Shown: in pieces, positions 21,970 through 57,753 of the stretch | Position numbering within the stretch: the first letter of the stretch is position 1 | Layout of the letters: each line of letters opens with the position of its first letter | Assembly: GCA_013360945.1 (NCBI GenBank) | Contig: JABWAQ010000009.1 | Span: forward strand, 1-57,753 | From: Candidatus Brocadia sp. | GTDB taxonomy: Bacteria; Planctomycetota; Brocadiia; Brocadiales; Brocadiaceae | Direction of reading: 5' to 3' | Length of the DNA: 57,753 nucleotides | Notes under the pieces: generated by a model | What the model saw: only the letters and a program-made list of their open reading frames with translations | Databases searched by the model: none | Told to the model about the DNA's origin: nothing | Program-made: the position numbers and the translations under genes

Positions 21970-23682
21970 TCATTTCCCCCATTCCTTCCTCTTCCACCCC
22001 AATAACATATCGGTGTATTCTCCGTGTTTCCAGAAGGGATAGGCAGTGTGCTTGATGCCGAGTTTTTCTTCGATTTCAGCAAAGCGTTTGAGTTTACTGG
22101 CCTCGTCCTTGATCTGCACCAGCCAGCGGTCCTGTGCCCATTCCCAGTACCCATAGATGGGACTGTAATAGGCATTATGGGCCTTTGCCTTATAAATGGC
22201 GCTAACGATGTCCACGAGCATCTCGTAGGTCAATCGTTCGATATTTGAGACGTTATATTTCCGTACCTCTCCCTTACCAGGCGTAAGGCTAAAGACATGA
22301 TGTCCACGTGAATCGGGGGCTAAATCACTGGGCATGGGATCGATGAGATTGTCAGTATATAAGGCCGTTACAATGGCCATTGCCTCACGGTATTTGGTAA
22401 AACTCAGTTTTACCGCCTCGTCCATGGCCTCTAAATGGTCTTTTGCAAATCGTGGTGAATGGCAACCCTTGCAAGTGTTAATCCAGGCATCCCGTGTTGC
22501 TTTATACCGGTATGCGCCACGATCTACTAATGAGGTGCCCATGTAGGTATAGACCGTAGACATACTGAGAATATTATGATTCCCTTCTGGCATGTGGCAG
22601 TATGAACAGGTGGGAACGACATAGTTTTTGGCATCCATCGGCCTTGTCCAGTCCCAGTTTTGCCCTTCACCCTGATACACCATGCCGTGATACGACTGCA
22701 TATACATTTCATACTCGTATTGTTCCGGACCGGAATGGCATACGCCGCAACTTGTGGGTTTCCTTGCCTCAGCCGCTGAAAAACGATGCCGTGTATGACA
22801 GCCATCACACCGGTTTTCAGCGATGGCATGACAGGCAAGGCAAGCAGCCGTTTCCTCGGCAGGCTTTTCCATCTGGCATCCCTGATCTATCAGTTCCAGA
22901 TGATACGCATGTGCATGAGATCCCCGGCCACCCTCACGATGCCCTTTTAGCTGCTTTTCATGGCATTCACCACAAAGGGTATATGTGGGCATGATGAGCT
23001 TTTCATGATTTTTCCCGTGACAGCGGTCGCAACCTACCACCTCCTTTCCTTCGGGCGGTGTCCCATGCTTGCTTTGTTTCCATTGCGCTACAATGCCGGG
23101 ATTTTCCATATTGTGACAGGTAACACACTGCTCGTTAGTGAATTCACCAGTTACGGTACTCCCTGGGTGAAAGTTCCCGGAATTATAATAATACGCAGGA
23201 TCGTACCAACGTACCATGGGTAAAAACCGGTAGAGTTCTCCAAATTTTCCCTTTCCCGGAAAAAGTTCCTTTGGGCCGGTGTAATAGCCTGAAAGCCCCC
23301 CTGCGTTGTAAACATCCCCTGAGTCATCTGGTCCCACCTTCTCTCCCAGAAGTTCGGCCATCTCATGGCGGAATCTCATGTTACCGAATATCCGCCGGGG
23401 TGTTGCAGTTGTCTTGATTGCAGGGGTTTCAATGGTACGGGGCAATTGCTCAAGATCAAATGGAATTTCTGGTGAATTTATAACCGCCCCTCTTTCCCCT
23501 TCTTCGTAAGGAAGAGATGGCGGGTGGGTTTCCACTTGATACTGAATAAATTCAATTTGTTGGCTGGCGTCCTTTAATTCCTGGGCAAAAGAATGAGGCA
23601 CAAGAGACAGGATAAAAAACGTACTAATAATAAAAAGATTCGTAAGGAAGAATGGTTTAGTATTGCGATAAAATTTATTCAT
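21970..23682 (-). CDS. Octahaem hydroxylamine-oxidoreductase-like cytochrome c
   Basis: This 570-aa exported protein (signal FFLTNLFIISTFFILSLVPH, cut near SFAQ) has exactly eight CxxCH haem-c sites, at about 176, 208, 227, 271, 282, 302, 349 and 394. Their spacing is that of the HAO family. Anammox bacteria encode many paralogues: some oxidise hydroxylamine or hydrazine with a tyrosine-crosslinked P460 haem, others lack the Tyr and are thought to reduce nitrite or play other roles. I could not place the Tyr with confidence; Y466, Y476 and AHNAYYSPIYGYW are candidates. An excellent ribosome-binding site (AGGAGG) precedes the ATG. It stands alone, without a quinol-oxidising partner gene next to it. 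Confidence 0.92.
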   Translation of the reverse strand: MNKFYRNTKPFFLTNLFIISTFFILSLVPHSFAQELKDASQQIEFIQYQVETHPPSLPYEEGERGAVINSPEIPFDLEQLPRTIETPAIKTTATPRRIFGNMRFRHEMAELLGEKVGPDDSGDVYNAGGLSGYYTGPKELFPGKGKFGELYRFLPMVRWYDPAYYYNSGNFHPGSTVTGEFTNEQCVTCHNMENPGIVAQWKQSKHGTPPEGKEVVGCDRCHGKNHEKLIMPTYTLCGECHEKQLKGHREGGRGSHAHAYHLELIDQGCQMEKPAEETAACLACHAIAENRCDGCHTRHRFSAAEARKPTSCGVCHSGPEQYEYEMYMQSYHGMVYQGEGQNWDWTRPMDAKNYVVPTCSYCHMPEGNHNILSMSTVYTYMGTSLVDRGAYRYKATRDAWINTCKGCHSPRFAKDHLEAMDEAVKLSFTKYREAMAIVTALYTDNLIDPMPSDLAPDSRGHHVFSLTPGKGEVRKYNVSNIERLTYEMLVDIVSAIYKAKAHNAYYSPIYGYWEWAQDRWLVQIKDEASKLKRFAEIEEKLGIKHTAYPFWKHGEYTDMLLGWKRKEWGK

Positions 23683-26928: not shown

Positions 26929-27232
26929 AAGAGTTATATCATTACCTCCGATAATAGATTAATACGTTTATTTTTAAAGATGTTGAAACGTTAAAATTCA
27001 ACATACAACATTATAGTATCTTTTTAACCATTAGACAACTTATAGTATTGATATCACTTTTTTTACCTCAAGTTGTTCTGTCTTTATTACGCTCGCTTTT
27101 GACATTTACGTTATGCCTCCACTTTAACGATATATAGCAATCTCATTGCGGGTTCAGGTTGCAAACCTAAACCCGCGACCGGAGTTTATACAGTTAATCT
27201 CATCAGATTTATTTCTTTAAAATTATTTACAA
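26929..27232. other. Gap upstream of guaB
   Basis: About 300 bp of AT-rich DNA hold the guaB leader on the minus strand. No gene or clear promoter pair was recognised. A GGTTCAGGTTGCAAACCTAAACC inexact hairpin, written here only as GGTT...AACC, lies near 27150-27172. Confidence 0.4.
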
Positions 27233-53512: not shown

Positions 53513-54581
53513 GGGGTCACACCTTGATTAGTGATTATATTGTTGACAATAAAAGGAAAATGTGTTAATTTGTCCGCCATGTCAAGACCATGGCGCATAG
53601 AATTCGAAGGGGCTTACTATCACATCGTATCACGAGGAAATGAGCGAAGGAATATTTTCCGTGATAATAATGACCGTATATTGTTTCTGGATATTTTGGG
53701 GAAAACGTCGGAAAGGTTCGAGGTTGAAGTTTATGCCTATGTGCTCATGGACAACCACTATCATTTGCTCCTGAAAACCAATAAGCCCAATATTTCTCAA
53801 AGCATGCAATGGTTGGGAACCACTTACACACGCCGGTATAATATAAAACACAAGAGAATTGGTCACCTTTTTCAAGGACGATTTAAAAGCTTTCTTATTG
53901 AAAACGATCAATACCTGCTGCGTCTTTCTTGCTATATTCACCGGAATCCATTACGAGCCAAAATAGTTAATCGGCTAGTAGATTATCCATGGAGTAGTTA
54001 TCCAAGGTATGCCTATGGCAAAAAATCACCGGAGTGGCTATGTACAGCGCCTATTCTTTCTCGTTTTGATGCAAAGGATAAGAACAAGGCATATCGGGAA
54101 ATGGTTCAAAGTTATTCCCGGGAAGAAAAAAGGCTATGGGAAGATTTTCGACATGGTCTTTTTTTGGGATCAGAGCAGTTTATTGAGCGTATCAAATCCA
54201 GATATTTGTCTGAGAAGCCTGATGTTGAAATCCCTCAAAAACGGCAAGTTTTAAGAGACACTGACCCTGAAACCATCCTGAAGAAAGCAGCACGGGCATT
54301 AAAATGCAATATCAGTGATTTCTTACCATCCGCCAGGATCAGCAATTCACATAAGCTAAATCGGGACATGTTAATTTATCTTTTATGGAGTACGGGTTGG
54401 TATACTAATAAGGAGATCGGCGAATTATTTGGTCTTGGTTATTCTTCCATAAGCCGACGAGTGGCTGTTATGAAATCAAAGATATCTCAAGAGGATACAA
54501 TAAACAACCAACTAGAAAATATTAAATCACTAATCAAGGTGTGACCCCATCCCTGTCCAAGGTGTGACCCCATCCCTGTCC
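53513..54581 (+). mobile_element. Y1-transposase element with 23-bp inverted ends
   Basis: The ends GGGGTCACACCTTGATTAGT and on (53513-53535) and the matching reverse complement (54526-54548) are perfect over 23 bp. The right end is doubled: a 23-bp unit starting AAGGTGTGACCCCATCCC occurs at 54536-54558 and 54559-54581. The left flank has a similar tandem (GGGAGGGATATT twice, about 53491-53514). The element carries the Y1 transposase and splits a lipoprotein reading frame on its right. Confidence 0.85.
53579..54544 (+). CDS. Y1 (REP-associated-type) transposase with DnaA-like C-terminus
   Basis: This 321-aa protein has an intact Y1 domain. It starts MSRPWRIEFEGAYYHIVSRG, with the HUH-type motif MDNHYHLLLKT and the helix RLSCYIHRNPLRAKIV holding the catalytic Tyr. 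DYPWSSYPRYAYG follows. The C-terminal 70 residues (LSTGWYTNKEIGELFGLGYS and SISRRVAVMKS region) resemble the DnaA domain IV helix-turn-helix. The start at 53579 follows a TTGACA-like box in the left end. The stop codon lies inside the right inverted repeat. Probably active. Confidence 0.88.
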   Translation: MSRPWRIEFEGAYYHIVSRGNERRNIFRDNNDRILFLDILGKTSERFEVEVYAYVLMDNHYHLLLKTNKPNISQSMQWLGTTYTRRYNIKHKRIGHLFQGRFKSFLIENDQYLLRLSCYIHRNPLRAKIVNRLVDYPWSSYPRYAYGKKSPEWLCTAPILSRFDAKDKNKAYREMVQSYSREEKRLWEDFRHGLFLGSEQFIERIKSRYLSEKPDVEIPQKRQVLRDTDPETILKKAARALKCNISDFLPSARISNSHKLNRDMLIYLLWSTGWYTNKEIGELFGLGYSSISRRVAVMKSKISQEDTINNQLENIKSLIKV

Positions 54582-54678
54582 TCTTTGTGCCAGTGAATAT
54601 CGCTGAACCAGATGCACAACCAGCTAGAAATACAAAAAGAAAATATAACGTGGCAATTTTAATTCTTCGTTCATTCAT
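54582..54678 (-). pseudogene. 5' stub of a lipoprotein gene cassette
   Basis: The frame begins MNERRIKIATLYFLFVFLAG, then CASGSAIFTGTK, with the lipobox LAGC. It has a strong ribosome-binding site (AAAGGAGG) and starts only 26 bp after the attC crossover point, the usual cassette layout. After about 32 codons it runs into the tandem repeat of the transposase element. The rest of the gene is not on the other side of that element, so the cassette is truncated. Confidence 0.65.
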
Positions 54679-54698
54679 GCATTACCTCCTTTATAGGC

Positions 54699-54762
54699 TC
54701 CTAACGCGCCGGTTCAGCGGCGGGCCGCGCAGCGGACCGTCCGCTGCAACCGGTTGTTATGC
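54699..54762 (-). other. attC recombination site of the integron cassette
   Basis: On the minus strand the order is R'' GCATAAC (54762-54756), an imperfect stem and R' GTTAGGA (54705-54699). The stem arms CCGGTT-G-CAGCGG and CCGCTG-AACCGG pair except for one unpaired G, an extrahelical base typical of attC. The central part is GC-rich. R'' is the exact complement of GTTATGC, the first bases of the cassette at 56811-56805, as expected from the circular cassette. Crossover is between G54705 and T54704 (minus strand). Confidence 0.88.
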
Positions 54763-54788
54763 CCCGTGTTCGCCGACGCACCCTTCAC

Positions 54789-55655
54789 CTACACTGGTTT
54801 GAAGAGTGTAGCAGGCGACAGCTTCGCTTCGAGTGCGGCGACAATCTGGGCAAGCTCCACGCGGGCTTCTGCCTGAAGACCAAGGCATGTCGCGATACCC
54901 TCTGCATCGGTACTCACCCTTGATTGCATTCCCAACTTGAACGAGCGGTCGGGCTGTTTTTCTAGTCGGTACACGTGCATGTGCATCGCATCGCCAAGTA
55001 CAGCCGGATTCTTCAAGTGCTCGAACCTAAACTCCTTCGTCATGTAGCCGAATAGCTTATCTTGGAGTACGAGAACCAGTTTCCTGTTGACGTGCTCGAA
55101 GGTCTGGATCTTGTGATGCATCTGCACCAAGATTGTCTTCGCGGTCATCTTCCAGTTCATGCCGTACGACTTGGTGGATGATTCGTCCTTGTCACGGCGC
55201 GGGACGCTCAGCTTCTTGAGCAGCCGCTGCCGCTCCGGCCACACGGTGCCGGTGGTATCGAGCGTCTGAATTTCGATGCCGACGAAATCCTTCACCCTGC
55301 CCTTGCGGGCCGATGCCAGGAAATAGTCAACGCTGCCGCCGGGGATCGAAACCTCTTGAACGATGTGAAGTTCGTTCCCTGGCTCGTGCGTCGTGAGAAG
55401 GTGAAGGCAGTCGGTGAATATCTGGCGTCGCTCAAGAAGTCGCGTCGGGCAAATCACCACCGGTTCCTGCTCCTTGCCGTAGAGAACAGTGCATGATCCG
55501 ATGGAAGTGCTAGGGTCGCTCTTCCGAACCTTGTAGCAGGTCTTTGACAAGAATGGGCACTGCTGCTCACGCACGACGCGCGACCAGTCTTTGCGCCGAC
55601 TTTCGGCGGAGTGACCGAAGAGCTCGACCACGGTGCTCACAGGAGCGTCGCGCAT
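54789..55655 (-). CDS. NotI-like restriction endonuclease
   Basis: This 288-aa protein has four cysteines, C33, C40, C55 and C69, in the pattern QQCPFLSKTCYKVRKS ... GSCTV ... VVICPTR. NotI binds an iron ion with such a set. A PD-(D/E)XK-type core follows: D110 in GGSVDYFLAS, then E128-x-Q130 in GIEIQ. The E-x-Q form matches NotI as recalled. It overlaps the methyltransferase gene by 19 bp. It should cut a sequence protected by that methyltransferase; the site is unknown. It ends 27 bp before the attC site. Confidence 0.8.
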   Translation of the reverse strand: MRDAPVSTVVELFGHSAESRRKDWSRVVREQQCPFLSKTCYKVRKSDPSTSIGSCTVLYGKEQEPVVICPTRLLERRQIFTDCLHLLTTHEPGNELHIVQEVSIPGGSVDYFLASARKGRVKDFVGIEIQTLDTTGTVWPERQRLLKKLSVPRRDKDESSTKSYGMNWKMTAKTILVQMHHKIQTFEHVNRKLVLVLQDKLFGYMTKEFRFEHLKNPAVLGDAMHMHVYRLEKQPDRSFKLGMQSRVSTDAEGIATCLGLQAEARVELAQIVAALEAKLSPATLFKPV

Positions 55656-56764
55656 CGTTCCTCTGCAAGCCCCAGGTAATGACTAGAAATGTCGATCCCG
55701 ATGGATTGGCGGCCTAGGTCCCGCGCCGCGAGAAGGGTTGTGCCCGTCCCGCAGAACGGATCAAGCACTACACCGCCGTGCGGGCAAGTCGCTAGGATGG
55801 GGATCCGGCATAAGTCTGCCGGATAAGGCGCGTAGTGAGCTTCCCTCCTCTGGGTGTCCTCGGGCATGATGTCCCACACGTCGGCCGGCTTGCTTCCGTT
55901 CGGATGGTATCGGAGGAAGTAGAACCCTCGATCACGAAGTTCCTTAGCGCGGCCCGAGACCTTTTCGCTGTCCGAGTGAGTCGCGCGTTGTTGGCCTCGA
56001 ATGATCATGCGGAAATCAGAGATGATTCCCGCACCAACGTCCGCCAACATCTGTTCTAGTGCTTTGAAGGCATCGCGCTTCTCCTCCTCGCTCAGGGTGG
56101 TGGAGAGTTCGATCTGCCGCTTGTAGCGGACGCCGGAAACACCAGTGGCGGAAACGACGGCGCCGTTTACGACCCGTGCCTCCCGTGGCTTCGATCGGAT
56201 CGCGTCAGTGTCGTAGTAGTACTTCGACTGTTTCACGAAGTGGAAGACATGCTCGTGAATGTTCCCAAGGCGATCCTTCGTGTTGTCCATGCCGCTCTTG
56301 ACTTTGTTCCAAATCACGCTGTTGCGGAGTATCCAGCCTTGCCGGTCGGTGAGTTCGAGGGCCACCCGCCAGGGAATGCCCGCGAGCCCCTTATCTTGAT
56401 AGGTATCGCCGATGTTGAGCCAGAACGAGCCCTCAGGCTTGAGAACACGCTTGAGAGCAAGGAATATGTCCGTCAGGTGGTGAATGAACTCCCGGTAGTC
56501 GTTTTCCTGGCCGATACCTCCGCCTTCGTACTCACGCTTCCCCCAATACGGTGGGGAGGTCATGGCGAAGTCGATACATGATGAAGGCAACTGGTCTAGC
56601 ACGAGCCGCGCGTCACCGAGGAGGAGAAGCGGCCTCAGGCGGCCACCAGACCTGTATGAGTGCACTTCCCTTGCGTAGTCCGTCTCGATGACCGACCGAA
56701 GCCGGCGAGGAGCCAGTTGTCGCTCAGGCTTCGGGGTGGTCTCGGCGTTTTTCACGTTGTCCAT
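55637..56764 (-). CDS. Beta-class DNA methyltransferase of the cassette
   Basis: This 375-aa protein (start ATG 56764; GTG 56773 would add three residues) has motif IV TSPPYWGKREYEGG near residue 70 and motif I LDPFCGTGTTLLAARDL near 335. This is the beta order, IV before I. SPPY is common in N4-cytosine but also in N6-adenine enzymes, so the methylated base is not certain. HVFHFVKQSKYYYD precedes the variable target-recognition part. It is the first gene of the cassette, starting 47 bp after the boundary. Confidence 0.88.
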   Translation of the reverse strand: MDNVKNAETTPKPERQLAPRRLRSVIETDYAREVHSYRSGGRLRPLLLLGDARLVLDQLPSSCIDFAMTSPPYWGKREYEGGGIGQENDYREFIHHLTDIFLALKRVLKPEGSFWLNIGDTYQDKGLAGIPWRVALELTDRQGWILRNSVIWNKVKSGMDNTKDRLGNIHEHVFHFVKQSKYYYDTDAIRSKPREARVVNGAVVSATGVSGVRYKRQIELSTTLSEEEKRDAFKALEQMLADVGAGIISDFRMIIRGQQRATHSDSEKVSGRAKELRDRGFYFLRYHPNGSKPADVWDIMPEDTQRREAHYAPYPADLCRIPILATCPHGGVVLDPFCGTGTTLLAARDLGRQSIGIDISSHYLGLAEERCATLL

Positions 56765-56822
56765 TCTTTCCACGTCCCTTGATCAGGGAGTTGCTGCCTA
56801 CGGGGCATAACATGAATTAGCC

Positions 56823-56911
56823 GTACTAATAGCCGTCTTATTTTGCGGCTATTAGTACATATAATACGTTTACTGGTGACTTATTATACGGCTATTTGGG
56901 CATATAATAAG
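56823..56911. repeat. Three iterated CGGCTATT motifs in attI
   Basis: CGGCTATTAGTACATATAAT at 56846-56865 and CGGCTATTTGGGCATATAAT at 56889-56908 are direct repeats with a 43-bp period; a third copy, CGGCTATTAGTAC, is inverted at 56823-56835. They may be integrase-binding or regulator sites. Confidence 0.7.
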
Positions 56912-56932
56912 GTTCAAGAATATTTTGCCGAT

Positions 56933-56962
56933 ATTATATCTTAAAGTACCAAACTATTACAA
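56933..56962 (-). promoter_or_regulatory. Candidate cassette promoter (Pc)
   Basis: On the minus strand, TTGTAA (56962-56957), an 18-bp spacer and TATAAT (56938-56933) point into the cassette array. The -10 box is perfect, the -35 box matches 4 of 6. The position, between integrase start and attI, fits a Pc promoter. Confidence 0.45.
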
Positions 56963-56994
56963 TAAAATTATTTTCATAACGAAAAGGAACTCTT

Positions 56995-57672
56995 ATGCCA
57001 AAACCAAAACTATTGGATCAGGTGCGTGATGCAATTCGGGTAAAGCACTATAGCATGAGAACAGAAGAAGCGTATGTATATTGGATTAAACGATTTATCT
57101 TTTATCACGAGAAACGACATCCATTACACATGGGAGAAGCTGAAGTCAGTAAATTCCTTTCTCATCTTGCTGTTGAGGAAAAAGTGTCTGCTTCTACCCA
57201 GAATCAGGCATTGAGCGCTATTTTGTTTCTCTACCAAGAAGTGCTCAAACAAGAGCTGGGTTGGATTAATAACGTAACGAGGGCAAAAAAGCCTTCTCAT
57301 TTGCCGGTTGTTTTTACCAAGGAGGAAGCAAAGTCAGTGTTACTCAGGCTGGAGGGAACGAAGTGGCTCATGGCAAGTCTTTTATACGGCGCTGGTCTCA
57401 GGTTGATGGAATGCCTGGGACTCAGGGTGAAGGATATGGATTTTTCGTATAGTCAGATTACGGTCAGGGATGGAAAGGGTGGAAAAGATCGGTTAACTAT
57501 GTTGCCCGCGTCTCTGAAAGAACCATTAAGGAAACACTTGGAAAAGGTAAAACTCTTGCATGAACAGGATTTAAAAGAGGGTTTTGGCACCGTTTACCTG
57601 CCTTTCGCCCTTGCAAAAAAATATCCAAATGCTGAAAGGGAATTTGCCTGGCAATATAGTATTACTGTGTGA
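56995..57672 (+). pseudogene. intI: Integron integrase IntI, truncated
   Basis: The 225-aa frame matches IntI from its start: [60 protein letters not shown] with catalytic R136, and DGKGGKDR with K164. [17 protein letters not shown] is the extra segment that marks IntI and is absent from XerC/D. The frame then ends YSITV, before the H-R-H and Tyr motifs (about 100 residues missing). A CCCCCTTTA repeat follows at 57700. It cannot recombine alone; the site was inserted or deleted into after cassette capture. Confidence 0.88.
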
Positions 57673-57712
57673 AATCTTTCTTTTTTTGCAAGTTTTTTAC
57701 AACCCCCCTTCA

Positions 57713-57753
57713 CCCCCTTTACTAAGGGGGAACTCCAAAATCCCCCTTAGTAA
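57713..57753. repeat. CCCCCTT-AAGGGGG repeat at the window end
   Basis: CCCCCTT (57713-57719), TACT, AAGGGGG (57724-57730), then the start of a further copy (CCCCCTTAGTAA). It is the same class as degenerate copies near 2450-2540. It lies just past the truncated integrase and may have caused the truncation. The window ends within it. Confidence 0.65.

Follow-up and report, generated by a model that had tools for sequence, protein, structure and literature searches.

The stretch of DNA analysed here (the window) is 57,753 nt long and makes up the whole of contig C135 of its own genome, G000, an assembly of 3.85 Mb in 196 contigs with 5.29% estimated contamination. Toward its right end, which falls inside a repeat, lie the 5' part of an integrase gene (intI), an attI region, a gene cassette encoding a restriction-modification (RM) system, an attC site and the start of a second cassette. 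We conclude with high confidence that this locus is a chromosomal integron that captured an RM cassette and was later disabled. Comparisons across the planctomycete order covered 59 genomes, own included, for IntI and 58 for the other searches; labels beginning with G, C and L denote genomes, contigs and fetched loci, respectively. The main features are listed below, R1 and R2 being two covariance models of attC.

56995..57656, plus strand: 5' part of intI (to ...EREFAWQY), identified with TIGR02249; 90.2% DNA identity to the G021 copy, the alignment ending at 57656
57657..57753, plus strand: start of a repeat resembling a miniature inverted-repeat transposable element (MITE), which interrupts intI; the contig ends inside it, and its last 33 bases are identical to the end of contig C7
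56811..56994, minus strand: putative attI region with leader, reaching from intI to the crossover G; 90.6% identity to G021 (L134), the match ending at the crossover
56933..56962, minus strand: possible promoter Pc, TTGTAA-18-TATAAT, directed toward the cassette genes (consensus scan, 10/12)
54705..56810, minus strand: gene cassette 1, 2106 bp, both ends placed by comparison with other genomes
55637..56773, minus strand: N4/N6 DNA methyltransferase, the first cassette gene (PF01555, 155.1 bits; PADLOC MTase_II)
54789..55655, minus strand: NotI-family type II restriction endonuclease (PF12183, 27.6 bits, cut-off 22, E 2.2e-6; PADLOC REase_II)
54699..54762, minus strand: attC of cassette 1 (R1, 47.0 bits; R2, 46.1 bits)

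The attC models were built from sites in related genomes. A rule-based attC finder gave 21 attC-like sites in 37 fetched stretches from relatives and the own genome, and 16 of these, all from relatives and with the window excluded, were oriented away from intI or by the bulged base and then aligned as the seeds of R1. R1 excluded the sites of L127, L135, L137 and L145 as well as one from G013 that is almost the same as the window site. Scanning the 57.7-kb window with R1 returned two matches at E <= 10, the attC at 54762-54699 on the minus strand (E 7.8e-9) and its plus-strand counterpart, scoring 13.3 bits (E 0.82). Model R2, which is R1 without the seed closest to the window site (L139:6719-6778, 49 of 64 bases shared), scored 46.1 bits on the minus strand and 14.1 bits on the plus strand, which agrees with R1. 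A preliminary description of this DNA had placed an attC at 54699-54762 and proposed a covariance search as its test; the site was recovered by both models. Folded as a single strand, the site reaches -24 kcal/mol (z -4.0), and none of 200 shuffles was equally good. At its strict setting, the rule-based finder listed this place as the sole site in the window, on both strands, which it is unable to tell apart, and a set of 10 first-order random windows yielded one site; a looser setting added 27122-27199 in the window. The R'' core GCATAAC is present and is complementary to the cassette's first bases, GTTATGC, bearing out both cores as they were first read. Cassette 1 is bounded by a folded, strand-asymmetric attC with R'' and R' cores.

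Other searches with the site were less informative. In Rfam searches, two matches near the region were weak and implausible, and none in the window passed a gathering score (the presence of an attC family in Rfam was unchecked), and comparison of the attC with plasmids yielded two weak partial matches alone. An attC of G013 shares 94.9% identity with the window site across 59 bases and lies 3' of another gene, glycosidase-like by eye. The integron at locus L109 (G013:C11, 6251-10357) encodes a full-length IntI and has no fewer than three attC sites, among them this near-copy of the window's.

With the crossover G at 56811 and the R' G at 54705, the cassette spans 54705-56810. It had been described as GC-rich, and its GC content is indeed 58.4%, compared with 36% to 54% in the other 1-kb bins of the contig. 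On the intI side, the 90.6% alignment to the attI region of G021, a single contig from another genus, stops at ...CGGCTAATTCATG, the crossover. The attI end also matches in G002, from the same genus as the own genome, where this attI remnant (L126) is followed by G|TTAAAC, a different short open reading frame (ORF) and other DNA behind; the G028 match stops before the crossover. These homologies point to an attI site beside the 5' end of intI, as the attI-like region of the earlier reading implied. By eye, the region contains direct repeats at about 56880-56896 and 56837-56853 and an L box, GGCTAAT, beside the crossover. From the cassette side, a Nitrospira metagenome-assembled genome (L038) carries the cassette at 88.6% DNA identity over 2086 bp, starting at the crossover G. 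In L039 and L040, similar first bases (TTATGCCC...) are visible by eye behind other upstream DNA; blastn similarity begins only 120-160 bases further inside the cassette. As judged from these alignments, both ends of the predicted 2,106-bp cassette are fixed by comparison with independent genomes. The attC of the Nitrospira cassette (L038, 8893-9064) has the window's first arm and a different, longer second part that recurs just upstream of the cassette; it is possibly a hybrid attC.

The same comparisons bear on whether the integron was inherited or transferred as a block, cassette included, between related genera, with no capture by IntI in this lineage. Both the attI region and intI have about 90% identity to their counterparts in another genus, which suggests that the platform moves within the family and would suit such a history. 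However, G021 and G002 have other DNA at the same attI, as the preliminary description had proposed to look for, and the PF12183 profile, whose scores for this subfamily are low (27.5 bits for the window's own endonuclease), revealed a single further window-type pair in the 58 genomes, that of G015, near which no attC was found. We regard block transfer as unlikely, and capture by IntI as the better account of how the cassette came to lie at this attI.

The integrase ORF (56995-57672, plus strand) matches the NCBIfam model TIGR02249 (integron integrase) with 311.7 bits, above the cut-off of 265, over model positions 1-216 of 315 at the protein level, and a DNA search with the same model covers positions 1-222. 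These first 216-222 of 315 positions identify the predicted product as an integron-type tyrosine recombinase, reading to the right as first described. The window integrase keeps a 17-residue stretch that we take to be the IntI-specific part. The preliminary description had called the gene truncated. It is broken, but not simply truncated: the IntI-family frame is lost after WQY, and from 57657 on the sequence is that of the repeat. A search of the own genome with these 97 bases gave 54 matches, the query's own among them, spread over about 40 places; the repeat is present on many other G000 contigs, which ties C135 to the bin. Copies related to this MITE-like repeat occur in G002 (L121, L126).

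The rest of the integrase probably lies on contig C7 of the own genome. The end of C7 shares 33 bases with the window end and continues VFPASNRSIDP...THVLNKGGKGVRSPLDG, corresponding to IntI positions 216-314, and the window and C7 parts have 90.2% and 85.0% DNA identity, respectively, to one and the same G021 gene. The most likely interpretation is that the integrase was split by the MITE-like element, more than cut short. In the C7 flank, TAG directly precedes GTATTCC; if the insertion doubled a TA, intI would already have had a stop codon there, as the G021 copy has. No IntI matching the whole model was found in the G000 assembly (TIGR02249 search, 196 contigs). With its gene interrupted and no other whole IntI in the assembly, the locus would, by anatomy and descent, be a disabled integron, and the array would be fixed unless another IntI acts on it. 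A different kind of IntI pseudogene, with its start missing and an internal stop, is present on C166 (L002/L130, about 170-1621) and is followed by a cassette-like ORF that starts near GTTAGGC and is co-oriented with intI.

The ends of the window and of C7 both fall within a repeat present at about 40 places, a usual breaking point of an assembly, as would be expected if intI were whole in the cell and both contigs had been wrongly extended into the repeat. Against this, 97 repeat bases follow the window's last IntI codon, and C7 has about 90 more, starting with the shared repeat, before the remaining IntI; the repeat would need to have been added on both sides at the same codon. Moreover, all three close IntI copies are broken too, that of G021 by a frameshift and a stop, that of G002 by loss of the N-terminus and that of G028 by an internal deletion. 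An assembly artefact is in our judgement quite improbable, and we favour interruption of intI by the MITE-like element.

Beyond the attC, the array continues as follows.

54549..54704, minus strand: opening of cassette 2, including the 5' end of a lipoprotein-like ORF (start codon ATG at 54678), taken from the ORF list; the left limit is approximate, and the cassette is cut by a transposase element
53531..54544, plus strand: Y1 transposase gene of the repetitive extragenic palindrome (REP)-associated type (PF01797, 60 bits; NF047646, 76.3 bits, cut-off 80)

The ATG of the ORF after the attC is at 54678, which puts it 26 bases beyond the second crossover, exactly as had been noted. The second cassette stub of the preliminary description is likewise present, with the correction that it runs into the Y1 transposase element, whose inverted ends are visible by eye. 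The stub protein had no convincing relative in the fetched loci (best E 0.18). The overall order and orientation of the parts and the RM cassette itself were upheld by TIGR02249, R1 and the end comparisons.

The two genes of cassette 1 overlap by 19 bases and, being an adjacent methyltransferase and endonuclease, form a predicted type II RM system. Of 59 loci with a homologous endonuclease, whose source organisms are labelled as members of many phyla, 54 have a methyltransferase of the same kind next to it. The endonuclease is assigned to the NotI family by the PF12183 profile, above its curated cut-off. An alignment of 31 homologues shows no variation at four cysteines (C33, C40, C55 and C69) or at D110, E128 and Q130, and the same seven residues are invariant in a 10-sequence alignment that includes the NotI proteins of C83, a contig of the own genome, and of G029. 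These residues correspond to the predicted Cys4 metal site and D..ExQ catalytic residues of the NotI family, roles that are transferred from a review; in an excerpt of PMC4081073, the Cys4 motif of NotI holds Fe, and Q replaces the usual catalytic K. The window's endonuclease thus keeps the four cysteines and D..ExQ, as does the genome's high-scoring NotI. In contrast, it is only 20% identical to the C83 NotI, and its partner is an N4/N6 methyltransferase instead of the D12 type found in the C83 cassette. A search of solved structures by sequence with the endonuclease found no NotI. No relative of the endonuclease was confirmed in viral_contigs, and a phage carrier was rejected on this ground. 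A window-type RM pair (55% and 69% identity) is present in another genus of the family (L189, G015:C2, 4656-6442), with no attC detected.

An R1 attC was found in five of the 59 endonuclease loci. In L038, L040, L050 and L055 it lies just 3' of the endonuclease; in L048 it lies only upstream of the pair (26 bits).

Several observations weigh against a captured cassette in a disabled integron. The base after the attI crossover in G021 is A, not T. In the R1 alignment, 80.4% of the cells assigned to the structure form pairs, compared with 28-42% in slid controls, and these counts are biased, since the training sites were picked for pairing, so that they are no proof alone. The putative promoter is weak, with 3 sites found against a shuffle mean of 1.4 (sd 1.1). 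The adjacency of C7 and the window is deduced from a 33-base overlap inside a repeat and from the fit of the two putative IntI parts. Finally, 54 of the 59 homologous loci had no R1 attC at E <= 1 in the fetched DNA, some of which stops soon after the pair. The preliminary description had counted the same pair in relatives without attC flanks as a result that would speak against it. The pair does occur without a detected attC, but the cassette is not refuted, because L038, L040, L050 and L055 have an attC and the window's own cassette ends are fixed by comparison. We conclude that some hosts have the pair as a mobile cassette, and that in others it spreads differently or has attC sites that R1 missed. 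The idea that the stem-loop at 54699-54762 is a terminator or chance hairpin, and that the RM pair arrived by another mobile element near intI, can draw on those 54 loci and on the occurrence of related methyltransferases on plasmids, but it is highly improbable given the strand difference of 47.0 to 13.3 bits, the attC placed just after the endonuclease in the same four loci and cassette ends fixed on both sides in independent genomes; the R1 and R2 models and the two ends together disfavour it.

A history of a captured and later frozen cassette would run as follows. The window's IntI would have joined a circular cassette to attI at G/TT (56811/56810), the recombining strand being the folded bottom strand of the cassette attC, which is the window's plus strand. 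A promoter in the attI leader may then express the methyltransferase ahead of the NotI-like endonuclease, which would let host methylation precede cutting. If both enzymes are active with the predicted kind of specificity, the pair would restrict foreign DNA and make loss of the array costly. Later, the MITE would have split intI, with presumed loss of integrase function, and the transposase element would have split cassette 2. Since intI is split, the array would be mobile only with an integrase supplied in trans.

We also examined integrons and RM cassettes across the order. The integron platform proved widespread in the group: IntI was found above the cut-off in 24 of 59 genomes, own included, and attC at E <= 0.001 in 48 of 58. 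In G000 itself, nine contigs together carry 16 attC sites at E <= 0.001, and three more RM systems lie between attC sites there. On C83 (L166, 3900-6474), NotI (208.7 bits), a D12 methyltransferase and a 171-residue protein lie between two attC sites. On C25 (L171, 4229-7013), the two sites enclose an SfiI-type endonuclease (195.6 bits) and an N4/N6 methyltransferase, followed by small ORFs. The third system, on C139 (L170, 2350-5729), consists of an Eco57I/TaqI-like methyltransferase, an endonuclease and an opposite-strand helix-turn-helix gene. The C139 attC sites have the same two scores as those of G001:C30 (45.7 and 45.0 bits), and this cassette is therefore probably shared.

PF12183 gave 15 matches in 13 of 58 genomes, corresponding to 14 genes when two G009 pieces are counted as one. 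In the stretches searched, eight of these 14 NotI-family genes (two in G000 and one each in G009, G012, G025, G029, G048 and G052) are followed on their own strand, within 3.1 kb, by an attC at E <= 0.01. The G013 gene has a weak attC (18.9 bits), and no attC was found near the genes of G003, G006, G015, G040 and G054, the last of which is at a contig edge. The attC overlaps the end of the NotI-adjacent D12 methyltransferase ORF in G000, G009, G013 (the weak site), G025 and G029. SfiI-type genes occur in three of 58 genomes, with a clear attC in G000 and G025 and a weak one in G001 (20.7 bits). In nine genomes with 130 attC sites, 5 of 63 PF01555 matches (63 of 70 matches were above the cut-off, single genes sometimes being split over several matches) have an attC no more than 2.5 kb downstream, with 0.50 expected (P 1.5e-4). 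Without the window the count is 4 of 62 (P 0.0015), and without C25 too it is 3 of 61 (P 0.013); all of these P values are a guide only, some cases, such as C25, having been known before counting.

NotI cuts GCGGCCGC, which occurs 24 times in the 3.85 Mb genome, with 42 occurrences of the reversed control. Since 24 sites are within the range of 10 to 25 given by base composition (40-45% GC), we do not claim avoidance of NotI sites. The SfiI site is given as GGCCNNNNNGGCC in an excerpt of PMC4081073. We suggest, tentatively and with more doubt than conviction, that the integrons of the order may be banks of rare-cutting type II RM systems: NotI and SfiI pairs might be captured since a few dozen host sites would do little harm before methylation, and rare specificity, not the capture machinery, might decide which RM systems travel. 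If this wider pattern were true, the settling of an RM system in an unmethylated host would be tied to a countable property, the frequency of its sites in the host, and the order would join the organisms that store anti-phage systems in integrons.

The anatomy itself is of a known kind. As in sedentary chromosomal integrons, intI, attI and attC are of normal design, the cassettes read away from intI, and further attC sites lie elsewhere in the genome. Unlike them, the window's intI is MITE-interrupted, the attC sites are distributed over nine contigs and the first cassette is a two-gene RM system. Excerpts of earlier papers report planctomycete intI and attC, including Kuenenia stuttgartiensis intI in a tree (PMC2426708, PMC8352920, PMC3607928), RM systems moving in integrons (PMC4176335) or present in them (PMC9892861) and RM among the defence systems of Xanthomonas cassettes (PMC12444791), and Vibrio integrons are called banks of anti-phage systems in part of another (PMC12409362). 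Unlike these known RM and anti-phage cassettes, those described here encode NotI- and SfiI-family endonucleases, several in one genome, and recur in one order. In the open-licence literature, we found, among the matches listed, no title or abstract start that describes a NotI or SfiI cassette from this order. Integrons with RM cassettes are already known, and a possible store of rare-cutter RM systems in the order is the part that could be more. With its cargo and clear junctions, the locus is a good test case for a device of known kind. Its ends can be read from independent genomes, and it shows the entry of a cassette outside Proteobacteria followed by decay of the machinery; the Nitrospira copy, at 88.6% DNA identity, points to cassette exchange between distant phyla.

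The host label planctomycete is based on the call made in the preliminary description and on one gene of the window. This gene, at 21970-23682, encodes an HDH/HAO-like (hydrazine-dehydrogenase-like) octaheme protein (411 bits, below the cut-off of 900), and it favours, tentatively, an anammox-type host. The hydrazine synthase domain PF18582 had no match in the own genome in a search without a positive control. At the left contig end (2933-13073), the window also carries V/A-type ATP synthase genes for subunits I, C, A and B (NCBIfam).

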